Under the pieces are notes generated by a model. That model was not told where the DNA came from and did not search any database. It was given only the letters and a program-made list of their open reading frames with translations. A program made the translations under genes and the position numbers. Below, piece after piece: positions 48,805-53,036 of a DNA stretch of 64,000 nt (its first letter is position 1; each line of letters begins with the position of its first letter). The DNA comes from Blastopirellula sediminis (lineage in GTDB: Bacteria > Planctomycetota > Planctomycetia > Pirellulales > Pirellulaceae): positions 2,878,720-2,942,719 of the forward strand of contig NZ_JAJKFT010000010.1 in assembly GCF_020966755.1 (NCBI RefSeq). Reading direction: 5' to 3'.

Positions 48805-49129
48805 CCAGGAGATCCTTCCCAGGGGCTTGGGTTTAAAGATCCCCTATTGGACTGCCATTGGATGAATTTTTGCGGAGCGATGCATGAGGAACCGACGAGC
48901 GAAGCTTCGCTTTCTAACGAGTTTCCCCTTAGGTGGCGAAATCATTGGGCCAATTTGCAGGACTGTCCCCGTGAACGCCGAAGTTTCATTTGCTCACCGC
49001 CAACGCGACGAACTTTACGTTCGAATTGAAGAAGTAACAGAAAGCCCTGTTAGTAGCATCCCCATGCAAAGGCGTCACCGATCATCGGCGGCGCTTTTTT
49101 TGTAGTTTTATGCGTCAAAGCAGGAAAAG
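48805..49129. other. Gap without a supported protein gene; ends in a plus-strand terminator
   Basis: No convincing gene is seen. Two overlapping plus-strand frames (48847-49029 and 48884-49105) lack a ribosome site, and the second reads through the hairpin at 49072-49094. The palindrome AGCGAAGCTTCGCT lies at about 48899-48912. The terminator implies that some plus-strand RNA is made here. Confidence 0.45.
49072..49101 (+). terminator. Intrinsic terminator with no recognised upstream gene
   Basis: The stem pairs 49072-49081 with 49085-49094, with one mismatch and one G-T pair and a TCA loop, and is followed by seven T residues (49095-49101). The nearest plus-strand gene is the cupin gene, almost 900 bp upstream and separated by a minus-strand gene. 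The terminator may therefore end an unannotated short transcript. Confidence 0.7.
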
Positions 49130-49215
49130 TAGCCGAGGCGGGGCTCGAACCCGCACGGAGTGTTACCTCCACAGGATTTTAAATCCTGTGCGTCTGCCAA
49201 TTTCGCCACTCGGCC
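49130..49215 (-). tRNA. tRNA-Leu (anticodon TAA)
   Basis: Read on the minus strand, an 86-nt class II tRNA folds with a 7-bp acceptor stem (GGCCGAG with CTCGGCT, one G-T pair), a D arm, and anticodon stem CAGGA/TCCTG with loop TTTAAAA, giving anticodon TAA. A long variable arm (GGAGGTAACACTCC) and a T arm GCGGG-TTCGAGC-CCCGC complete it. The discriminator base is A and CCA is not encoded. It would read TTA and TTG leucine codons; a TTA codon occurs in the leuA leader peptide in this window. Confidence 0.96.
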
Positions 49216-49521: not shown

Positions 49522-50016
49522 ATGCTCACGCTGATCGCGCAAAACTATGGATTTCTGCCGACCCGTGGTTCGGTGATGCTCGACTTCGTCTTTCTGGCGA
49601 TGTTCGCCGTCATTGTGATCATGGGAATCAGCATTGCGCTGGTTCGTTTTCGGCGGATGTACAACCTCCACAAGTGGTTGCAAATCACGCTTGGCGTGGT
49701 GTTGCTGTTGGCGGTGGTCGCATTCGAGGTCGATATGCGGTTCTTCACCAACTGGCGCGAGTTGGCGGAGCCTTCTCCTTATTACGCGTCAGGGACGGTC
49801 GACTGGAGTCTCTACATCCACCTGGCGTTTGCGATTCCGACGCCGCTGCTCTGGATCTACGTGATCGTGATGGCGGTTCGCAAGTTCCCAGCGCCAGTGA
49901 TGCCGAATAGCTATAGCAACTCGCACAAGTTCTGGGCGCGGATCGCGGCGATCGGCATGACGATGACCGCGGTGACTGGGTGGATCTTTTACTACTTGGG
50001 CTTTGTGGCGTCGTAG
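49522..50016 (+). CDS. Second DUF420 membrane protein
   Basis: The 164-residue protein has four hydrophobic segments and DUF420-like features: RFRRMYNLHKWLQITLG, IHLAFAIPTPLLWIYVI and SHKFWARIAAIGMTMTAVTGW. It belongs to the same family as the gene at 4957-5403 but is clearly diverged and stands alone, away from oxidase genes. It may serve another heme-copper enzyme, or have a different role. Confidence 0.78.
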   Translation: MLTLIAQNYGFLPTRGSVMLDFVFLAMFAVIVIMGISIALVRFRRMYNLHKWLQITLGVVLLLAVVAFEVDMRFFTNWRELAEPSPYYASGTVDWSLYIHLAFAIPTPLLWIYVIVMAVRKFPAPVMPNSYSNSHKFWARIAAIGMTMTAVTGWIFYYLGFVAS

Positions 50017-50074: not shown

Positions 50075-51622
<1,548 letters not shown>

Positions 51623-51774
51623 GGTATCTCGGTAAACCTGACGTAGGTGGATGTACTAATAATGTATCGAATCGGCGTGCCGGCCGGGCGCCGGCGCGGT
51701 TAGTAGCAGCCGGCCTCGACCGCCGATATGCGGTGCGTCAGGGTGAAAATGGGTAAACATCGATCGCGGAATCC

Positions 51775-51816
51775 AATAAAAAAGCCCCAGGACCTGTTCG
51801 GGGGGCCTGGGGCTTT
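51775..51816 (-). terminator. Attenuator hairpin between the leucine leader peptide and leuA
   Basis: On the minus strand a perfect 11-bp stem (51806-51816 with 51781-51791, loop of 14 bases) is followed by a T-rich tail (with the stem end TTTTTTATT, to 51775). It lies 41 bases after the leader-peptide stop and about 150 bases before the leuA ATG. On the plus strand the tail is weak, so the element is oriented to stop leuA transcription. Confidence 0.85.
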
Positions 51817-51857
51817 TGATCAATTTTGGTTGATGCAAGCGCTGCGTACGCTCTCCC

Positions 51858-51911
51858 CTACGGCCGAAGACCGGTTAGTAGTAGGAGCGGTAATAGCGAA
51901 ATGCAGGGCAT
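51858..51911 (-). CDS. Leucine-rich leader peptide of leuA
   Basis: This 17-residue reading frame (MPCISLLPLLLLTGLRP) contains seven leucine codons, four of them CTA and one TTA, and ends with TAG. It lies between a sigma-70-like promoter and an intrinsic terminator, upstream of leuA on the same strand. The leader peptides of leucine operon attenuation in enterobacteria have the same plan: ribosome stalling at Leu codons when charged tRNA-Leu is scarce prevents the terminator from forming. The ribosome site is weak (AAAGACG). No protein role is expected. Confidence 0.75.
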   Translation of the reverse strand: MPCISLLPLLLLTGLRP

Positions 51912-51962
51912 CGTCTTTGTTGGTCAGTTTTGGGCTACAAAAGTAGTCAAGCTTCTGTAGGG

Positions 51963-51991
51963 ACTGTAACTGCGCCACAAGGTTCAGTCAA
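51963..51991 (-). promoter_or_regulatory. Sigma-70-like promoter of the leuA leader
   Basis: On the minus strand TTGACT (51991-51986) and TACAGT (51968-51963) are 17 bp apart. Transcription would start near 51955, about 45 nt before the leader-peptide ATG. The match is reasonable but untested. Confidence 0.5.
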
Positions 51992-52179
51992 CCGGCAATC
52001 GGTCGCCAGCAAGCCGGAAATCGCGGCTTCATCAGACTTTAAGACTCTGCAGGGCCCGCGGAAAACCCTATTTTGGCCCCGACGGCGGGTGATAGCAGTC
52101 GAAATCAACCTAGGATTGCGGGCCTGCCGGGCGATAGAATTGGCGCCACGGTAGGAGGAAATAGAAAGGAGTTTCGCAA
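51992..52179. other. Divergent intergenic region upstream of the leuA leader
   Basis: I see no gene here. It ends with the ribosome site GAAAGGAG (52165-52172) of the plus-strand zinc-ribbon gene. With 51623-51991 it forms the long gap between leuA and that gene. Confidence 0.5.
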
Positions 52180-52419
52180 GTGCCGGGTGATTCATTAGAT
52201 CTCAGCAGCGATCCGAATCCGCGACCGCGTTCCGAAACCGGAAGCGCGAAGCGCCGCGACTTTCTGGGGATCCAGTTCTCCTGCTGCAGCGTTTACGTCC
52301 GCATCTATAAGAACCGGGAGGGGACGCACTACGAGGGGAAATGCCCCAAGTGCTATCGCACCGTCCGATTTGAAATTGGTTCTGGAGGAAGCGACTCGCG
52401 CTTTTATACTGCGTATTGA
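52180..52419 (+). CDS. Small Cys-rich (zinc-ribbon-like) protein
   Basis: The 79-residue protein has a CC pair and a CPKC motif separated by about 20 residues (FSCCSVYVRIYKN ... GKCPKCYRTV), the pattern of a small zinc ribbon. The start is GTG at 52180 with a strong upstream GAAAGGAG. I do not know the family name. The start, short length and ribosome site make it a likely real gene. Confidence 0.72.
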   Translation: MPGDSLDLSSDPNPRPRSETGSAKRRDFLGIQFSCCSVYVRIYKNREGTHYEGKCPKCYRTVRFEIGSGGSDSRFYTAY

Positions 52420-52523: not shown

Positions 52524-53036
52524 ATGCACGTCGACGCGCAATACCAGCCCATGATGGATTTTGATGTTCAGCGGTGCACTCGCCGCTGTGCTGCGACAGA
52601 TCGAGAGCTTTTGCCGGGCGAGACGATTTACTCGGTCCTGGTCCGGGATGGCGCCGAGGTTGTGCGCCAAGACTACTCGGCCGAAGCCTGGCAAGGAGCG
52701 CCGGAAGGCGCCGTCGGTTGGTGGAAGTCGGAACTGCCAAGCGGCAAGTCGCGCGGTCCCGATTGGGCGCCAAGCGACGTGATGCTCGACTACTTTGAGA
52801 GTCTGGCCGAAGATCCGACCAAAGAAGATGTGCGGTACGTGATGGCGCTGCTGATGATTCGCCGCAAGATCTTGCGGTTGGATGAGGCGGACGGAGAAGG
52901 GGAGGGACCGGAGAAGTTGCTGGTCTATAGCGCGAAGCGCGAGATGCAGTACGAAGTGCCGGTCGCGAGTCCCAGTGCGGCGAGGATCGCCGAAATACAA
53001 ACCGAAGTCGCAAAGTTACTCGATTCGGCGGCGTAA
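52524..53036 (+). CDS. Conserved hypothetical protein
   Basis: A 170-residue soluble protein. It has an N-terminal RCTRRCAATDRELLPGE stretch with two Cys, an aromatic EAWQGAPEGAVGWWKSELP section and a helical C-terminus (VRYVMALLMIRRKIL; IAEIQTEVAKLLD). I do not recognise a named family. A start at 52551 or 52554 is also possible. It is 17 bp ahead of the lipoprotein gene and probably co-transcribed with it. Confidence 0.7.
   Translation: MHVDAQYQPMMDFDVQRCTRRCAATDRELLPGETIYSVLVRDGAEVVRQDYSAEAWQGAPEGAVGWWKSELPSGKSRGPDWAPSDVMLDYFESLAEDPTKEDVRYVMALLMIRRKILRLDEADGEGEGPEKLLVYSAKREMQYEVPVASPSAARIAEIQTEVAKLLDSAA

Follow-up and report, generated by a model that had tools for sequence, protein, structure and literature searches.

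A leucine-run leader and terminator before leuA in Blastopirellula sediminis: a probable ribosome-mediated attenuator and its possible tie to a linked tRNA-Leu(UAA) gene

In the 64-kb stretch of Blastopirellula sediminis DNA analyzed here (the window), leuA, the 2-isopropylmalate synthase gene and the presumed target of control, lies on the minus strand at 50075..51622; its product exceeds the NCBIfam leuA_bact threshold (TIGR00973, 720 bits versus a cut-off of 598.7). Upstream of its start at 51622, in the minus-strand stretch 51400-52300 that was read, the features follow one another much as a preliminary description of this DNA had proposed. A sigma-70-type promoter (51963..51991) is formed by a -35 box TTGACT at 51991-51986, a 17-nt spacer and a -10 box TACAGT at 51968-51963, with nine of 12 consensus matches. 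Just 3' of the -10 box, an inverted repeat, CTACAGAAG/CTTTTGTAG (51935..51960), which includes the probable 5' end of the transcript, differs by one base among four genomes of the genus and is, from sequence, fold and genus alignment, a candidate 5' RNA hairpin or operator. The leader frame at 51911-51858 encodes MPCISLLPLLLLTGLRP in 17 codons before a TAG stop, and its seven Leu codons are, in order, CTA, TTA, CTC, CTA, CTA, CTA and CTT. An intrinsic terminator follows (51778..51817), consisting of AAAAGCCCCAGG, 14 nt, CCTGGGGCTTTT and then TTATT; the hairpin and T-run described earlier are thus present, although counting the outermost A-T gives a stem of 12 pairs and not 11. On the far side of the leader, the largest frame starts at 52524 and runs away from it, which means that the terminator does not close an upstream gene. 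Past leuA, a convergent DUF420 gene (Pfam PF04238, plus strand, 49522..50016) precedes a tRNA-Leu(UAA) gene on the leuA strand (49129..49215), 860 bp beyond the leuA stop.

Several of these features would carry little weight in a single sequence. Three promoter-like sites were found in 5.5 kb where 1.7 are expected, a number not above chance, and comparison must therefore decide. A generic terminator scan did not list the leader hairpin, as the 14-nt loop is longer than the 8 nt that the scan allows. The 191-nt leader RNA folds more strongly than expected (z -3.49). CTA and TTA, described earlier as rare, indeed make up 3.0% and 1.9% of the 1613 Leu codons in 34 long frames of the window. Rfam covariance models searched over the window matched the tRNA alone, without a Leu_leader hit, and no T-box or riboswitch model reached its curated score at leuA.

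For the comparison, the best 80 of 583 confirmed leuA loci from a scan of species genomes were taken together with the window (81 loci). Under a strict rule (a Leu-run ORF, four or more Leu within 7 codons, with an intrinsic terminator 10-110 nt beyond it), a leader with terminator was found upstream of leuA in 52/81 loci, versus 2/405 dinucleotide shuffles. A covariance model, R2, was built from 42 of these leaders, leaving aside ten with a deviating layout; it matches the window at 51776-51872, the window sequence being among the 42. Beyond the 52, reading by eye revealed leaders with an imperfect stem at L004, L038, L042 and L047 (R2 E-values of 2.9e-5, 0.01, 0.051 and 1.5e-8, respectively), and L041, whose R2 match is at E 0.39, was counted as a leader by its likeness to L038. 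The promoter motif TTGAC-17/18-TANNNT recurs before the leader in 44/52 loci, at a distance of 35-139 nt, versus 0/203 control windows and 1/52 reverse complements, and an alignment within the genus shows the terminator stem maintained despite changes on both sides. At two loci of the window's genus (L227 and L228), the leader stop is shifted 12 nt downstream, with CGCAGGGG in place of CGTAGGGG; the GGGG segment is kept. One of the planctomycete-like leuA loci, L022, comes from a record titled Alphaproteobacteria, which is probably a mislabelled or mixed MAG.

The feature is not universal, because by the rules used it is absent from 24/81 leuA loci and from 42/60 regions of a broader sample of the phylum. 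Fourteen of the 24 belong to more distant loci (at most 71% identity), and the upstream regions of L013, L016, L017, L020, L035, L037, L057 and L059 (72-76% identity) were read and held no leader. The phylum sample contained a close leuA in 83/216 genomes, and 60 upstream regions were taken from the 82 besides the window's own genome. Leader and terminator were found in 18 of them, a count made without a shuffle control: one from the same family, 11 from one other family of the same class (f18) and, outside that class, six that come from five families. The preliminary description had named relatives without the Leu frame or hairpin as evidence against an attenuator; most near relatives keep the feature, but not all. 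Additional sampling provided 80 regions from 102 other leuA-bearing genomes of the order, 11 of them duplicates of earlier loci, and a relaxed stem rule then detected leader and terminator in 111/150 distinct leuA loci. The relaxed rule lost L007, L047 and L041.

An attenuator also requires an alternative structure, for which the earlier description had suggested that GGGG after the leader stop pairs with CCCC of the terminator arm. The leader stop is TAG in 37/52 loci, and TAGGG in 33/52. In the window, the segment at the stop (segment 2, TAGGGGAG, 51853..51860) can pair with the terminator 5' arm (segment 3, AAAAGCCCCAGG, 51806..51817). Over the 52 loci, the stop segment pairs with its own terminator arm at a mean of -11.7 kcal/mol, versus -10.2 with the arms of other species; 0/20000 permutations were as low, and against shuffled arms the mean z is -1.15 (t -6.0). 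An antiterminator that overlaps the leader stop and excludes the terminator is thereby found comparatively, over 52 loci. The suggested pairing was therefore in the right place, but in the window itself it is limited to 4 contiguous pairs and, at -8.6 kcal/mol, falls short of the family mean, which counts against an attenuator there. A candidate segment 1, CTCCTAC within the Leu codons (51881..51887), emerges from minimum-energy folds as the partner of segment 2, and in the strongest leader fold of the window CUCCUAC, from the Leu codons, is paired with GUAGGGGAG. Comparative support for segment 1 is mixed: the 1:2 pairing, which would act as protector while no ribosome translates the leader, beats cross pairs (6/20000), but against shuffles it is weak (z -0.24, t -1.7), a second point on the unfavorable side. 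The control pair 1:3 gave no signal (4640/20000; t 1.1).

The strongest single argument that the leader codons are read comes from their agreement with the pathway of the gene that follows. A terminator lies within 600 bp at 55 leuA loci; at 54 of these the leader has a Leu run, and runs of any other residue occur in at most 2. In the window's own genome, the third-best R2 match (E 0.005) lies directly upstream of a leuA paralogue at C4:193087, the citramalate synthase gene cimA (TIGR00977, 674.6 bits versus a cut-off of 450), whose product catalyzes the first step of an isoleucine route. Immediately before this gene (G000:C4:192931-193087; L171, L190) stands an Ile/Val-rich leader, MPNTLINVGSQIGPITIVRIVVPGRCGLG, with a terminator, a sister attenuator of Ile type that the preliminary description had overlooked, along with a second ORF in the gap between terminator and leuA. 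In 37 genomes, own included, cimA is above the cut-off; of the 36 read (G004 lies at a contig edge), 18, again with the own genome, have an Ile-run leader and terminator, versus 0/360 mononucleotide shuffles, and runs of other residues are fewer (Leu 0, Val 6, Arg 3, Ser 2, Gly 1, Pro 1). Thus, leuA leaders carry Leu and cimA leaders carry Ile. No recognizable attenuator was found within 500 bp upstream of ilvB and trpE in the same genome, which, like the patchy distribution, counts against the attenuator reading. R2 itself did not serve as a finder of further attenuators in this genome. It gave 18 matches, those at leuA and cimA having leaders, and the others that were read (L170, L173-L178 and L180) have none; several of the leaderless matches are terminators at gene or tRNA ends, including the second-best one, L170 (E 0.001), at a gene end. 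Outside this reading were L172, which lies on the strand opposite to the cimA match, and the weaker L179 and L181-L186.

Two other readings of the element can be weighed against these observations. The terminated leader could be a small RNA gene, or a small RNA derived from the 5' UTR, with the Leu-rich frame as a by-product; a short terminated transcript is expected either way, and the leader fold is strong. Nevertheless, Leu-run frames recur while their codons and the hairpin sequences change, and a run of Ile appears at cimA, which makes this reading highly improbable. Leu-rich frames are also easily found in any one sequence, so that a constitutive partial terminator, or a chance frame without regulation, could be imagined; the excess over shuffles, the covariation of the pairing and the codon specificity leave very little probability for it. 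We conclude that the window element is very probably a ribosome-mediated transcription attenuator of leuA of the classical leader-peptide kind, in agreement with the plan proposed earlier, as judged from conservation, pathway-matched codons and a covarying antiterminator pairing.

Under this attenuator model, transcription would start near 51960, as the promoter indicates, and a ribosome would trail the polymerase through the leader. When Leu-tRNA is plentiful, the ribosome would reach the UAG stop and cover the adjacent GGGG; with GGGG covered, the GCCCCAGG/CCUGGGGC hairpin would form and transcription would end before leuA. When Leu-tRNA is short, the ribosome would stall on the run of CUA and UUA codons and leave the segment at the stop codon free to pair with the terminator 5' arm, so that leuA would be transcribed. 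The UUA codon would render the switch sensitive to tRNA-Leu(UAA) as well, which is often encoded by the next gene downstream. Comparison provides the promoter, the leader, the terminator, the pairing between stop segment and terminator arm and the pathway-matched codons; the coupling to a ribosome and the response to leucine are inferred from what is established for trp, his and leu attenuation. Coupling of transcription and translation is assumed for planctomycetes.

The closest known counterpart is the attenuator of the enterobacterial leu operon (leuL; Leu_leader in Rfam). Both have a terminator before leuA and a stop-codon region that can pair with the terminator 5' arm, and a Leu-run leader with the rare CUA codon is common to both, as far as the accessible part of PMC1183508 describes the enterobacterial one. 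Unlike it, the planctomycete leaders differ in sequence, many relatives have a second ORF past the terminator, and a linked tRNA-Leu(UAA) gene occurs together with a matching UUA codon. Since no Rfam match was obtained, the element would work like a leu leader but stand outside the Leu_leader family. Elsewhere, a Leu-rich attenuator peptide is described for the branched-chain operon of Staphylococcus aureus in the available portion of PMC5794164; it is alike in its leucine content and in governing the synthesis of branched-chain amino acids, and differs in belonging to Firmicutes and acting beside CodY. The His leaders of hisS/hisZ in bacilli, in the portion of PMC2965389 at hand, likewise represent leader-peptide attenuation outside Proteobacteria and Actinobacteria, but in Firmicutes, for histidine and at other genes.

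The choice of Leu codons in the leaders is far from that of the genes they precede. Over 111 leaders, CTA makes up 23.0% of the Leu codons, versus 1.6% in the leuA genes. This agrees with the theory developed for E. coli, which, in the accessible text of PMC1183508, gives CUA as the most suitable control codon for leu; by the same text, UUA should sense leucine poorly, and its presence in a leader therefore needs another reason. In 15/81 loci, leuA is followed within 1.2 kb by a tRNA-Leu(UAA) gene of the same strand, as it is at L044, where the tRNA gene overlaps the computed leuA end, and in the window. In the window's genome BLAST gave 12 further hits; the five that rank next include no second UAA tRNA, and three of the five are Leu tRNAs (anticodons CAA, UAG and GAG).

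The preliminary description had mentioned the neighboring tRNA-Leu(TAA) in passing, a remark that proved meaningful, as this linkage tracks UUA in the leaders of relatives. We called a locus linked when a same-strand tRNA-Leu(UAA) gene lies within 1.3 kb downstream of leuA, and tabulated the 103 loci that combine a leader with the tRNA or, failing that, with 1 kb or more of downstream sequence. Eight loci with less than 1 kb and no tRNA seen were left out; unlinked loci needed at least 1 kb, whereas the linked loci L063, L065 and L071 were admitted with less, an uneven rule. L007, L047 and L041 also stand outside the table: L007 has a leader with TTA by the strict rule and the tRNA 3.5 kb downstream, and L047 has a TTA leader and the tRNA 152 bp downstream. 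The leader contains TTA in 26/28 linked loci (the exceptions are L268 and L274) and in 9/75 unlinked ones (p 1e-14), an association first noticed by eye and then counted; for the other five Leu codons p ranges from 0.11 to 1.0. The pattern holds in the later-fetched loci alone (TTA with/without: linked 10/2, unlinked 6/34, p 2.5e-5) and where the leuA gene itself has at most one TTA (linked 16/2, unlinked 9/50). Five of the unlinked TTA loci were followed further downstream: G003, from the window's genus, proved to be linked at about 1.2 kb once more DNA was read, and the other four have no tRNA within 2.7-4 kb more. With G003 moved, the table becomes linked 27/2 and unlinked 8/66. Among unlinked loci without TTA, further downstream DNA revealed the tRNA in 0/15.

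Shared ancestry was taken into account on a leuA tree of the 103 rows, a quick tree on which the Pagel models were given one optimization start each. Linkage requires 12 changes on it, with 8 of them forced by supported branches. The tree-aware phi of 0.76 was reached in 0/5000 simulations with both traits simulated and in 0/5000 with linkage fixed, and the dependent Pagel model was better (LR 30.9, p 3e-6). Independent pairs are few: over supported branches, on average 3.6/8 agree and 0 disagree (median p 0.125), and in the reverse direction 5.2/10 agree and 0 disagree (median p 0.0625). An explanation of the linkage by chance or base composition is disfavored by the tree-aware and codon tests, the independent-pairs test alone not being significant.

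These associations can be read as a loop in which leuA and the tRNA gene form one transcription unit and the leader UUA gauges the charging of the tRNA encoded there, adding to the sensing of leucine without replacing it. In favor, besides the association and its tree-aware tests, TTA is present in the leaders of all 17 loci with close linkage (at most 420 bp), and a search of the 17 spacers between leuA and tRNA, one of which (L063) contains a weak promoter match, revealed no terminator. On the other side stand the small number of independent pairs, the quick tree, the uneven downstream-length rule, and distance classes that were chosen after the data had been seen. Moreover, in the other 11 linked loci, including the window, leuA and the tRNA are 650-1048 bp apart, and an open frame of 145-228 codons runs between them on the opposite strand; 9/11 of these leaders contain TTA. 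Reporting on the tRNA is least certain in the window, because a convergent gene separates leuA from the tRNA gene there. On balance, we consider this loop an evenly poised possibility.

The second upstream ORF (ORF2, 51656..51760), between terminator and leuA, would encode MFTHFHPDAPHIGGRGRLLLTAPAPGRHADSIHY, and in the window it holds Leu-Leu-Leu and a GC hairpin that covaries among relatives. The core of this element spans 51676..51724, with the Leu codons at 51709-51701 and the hairpin GCCGGC/GCCGGC at 51695-51679. A 49-nt core of Leu-x-Leu codons followed by a hairpin GCCGGY/RCCGGC occurs in the terminator-leuA gap of 29/81 loci; these 29 built a covariance model, R1, and hence match it by construction. 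The core hairpin covaries, with 98.3% of cells paired and 15 cells changed on both sides (0/500 shuffles). An in-frame ATG without an intervening stop precedes the core in 29/29 loci, versus 3 and 5 for the other two frames, and in 26 of 27 further loci outside the building of R1 (again 3 and 5), the sole exception, L266, being probably aligned one base off. By eye, translation gives a motif close to [ST]R[AS]xLxLxxP, with differing codons for the same residues. We are therefore highly confident, from these comparative patterns, in predicting that ORF2 is translated. At L085 (G028:C241:16845-20392), two leuA copies stand back to back with identical scores and with second elements of identical score, probably an assembly palindrome.

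The element is tied to leuA. R1 has one strong match in the window's genome, at leuA (E 4.2e-5; next best 0.045), and the twelve best R1 loci in relatives are all upstream of leuA; the single strong own-genome copy rules out a mobile repeat. Among the 60 regions of the phylum sample, L109 and L110, which alone belong to the same order, both have it; the remaining 58 gave no match at E<0.01 and one weak match at L131 (E 0.042). It is absent from 26/52 strict-rule attenuator loci and from 17/18 attenuator regions of the phylum sample, so the attenuator can do without ORF2. Pairing was evaluated over 28 loci, omitting L032, whose core lies 433 nt before leuA. The ORF2 Leu codons pair toward leuA better with their own sequence than across loci (-12.9 versus -11.3; 10/20000; z -0.73, t -2.7), and the stretch before them also pairs toward leuA (0/20000; t -3.8). 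Pairing of the core hairpin itself with the sequence before leuA was rejected, 19649/20000 permutations being as good or better.

We interpret the second element, with modest confidence, as a control of translation or as an arrest peptide. Slowing of a ribosome, at Leu-x-Leu or through the nascent peptide, may change a stem that links the ORF2 codons with the pre-leuA region and so set the level of leuA translation. The preserved ATG, the peptide motif kept through differing Leu codons, the covarying hairpin, the pairing toward leuA and the position of the strong copies are consistent with a second, translational control. Conversely, the ORF2 stop varies from 340 nt before leuA to 117 nt inside leuA, there are just two or three Leu codons, their pairing in the window is weak (-7.9), and half of the strict-rule attenuator loci have no such element; we know of no homologue of ORF2. 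Such a second control is thus possible, at a little under an even chance. The nearest analogue is the actinobacterial LEU element, described in the accessible part of PMC1262725 as a Leu-codon upstream ORF before leuA with a conserved pseudoknot, for whose Leu codons a pairing with the Shine-Dalgarno box of leuA is proposed. That text mentions no terminator, and the planctomycete locus has one. Compared by description only, ORF2 is closer to the LEU element of that source than the first leader is; its Leu-codon pairing toward leuA is moderate over the 28 loci and weak in the window, and does not single out a Shine-Dalgarno box.

Taken together, leucine control here could have two layers, an attenuator whose UUA is matched to the downstream tRNA-Leu(UAA) gene and then an ORF2 stall site tuning leuA translation, a tentative combination that we hold to be somewhat less probable than its being wrong. 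As UUA is matched to a tRNA gene downstream, the switch in this two-layer reading would also regulate the supply of the tRNA that it reads. Rare UUA codons and tRNA-Leu(UAA) are a regulatory pair in the bldA system of Streptomyces, with UUA inside coding genes; the regulatory pair would be the same here, with the codon in an attenuator beside the tRNA gene. The authors of PMC2965389, in the available portion of the paper, knew of no leader peptide systems outside Proteobacteria and Actinobacteria and added Firmicutes; its main text contains no planctomycete word. PMC4833913, in its accessible part, gives leader-gene distance statistics that include Planctomycetes, and no leu attenuator. In the literature searched, which covers few subscription journals and some papers in part, no such leader or attenuator system is described for planctomycetes, and no case was recognized in which a leader codon matches a tRNA gene in this way.

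These results would carry leader-peptide attenuation into Planctomycetota, a phylum whose members have an unusual cell organization. If the switch works as proposed, transcription and translation would have to be coupled in planctomycetes, which makes coupling directly testable there. Furthermore, the correlation between UUA and the tRNA gene offers a natural experiment on synonymous codon choice in attenuators, the question treated in the accessible part of PMC1183508, and suggests that a tRNA gene may be controlled through its own codon.
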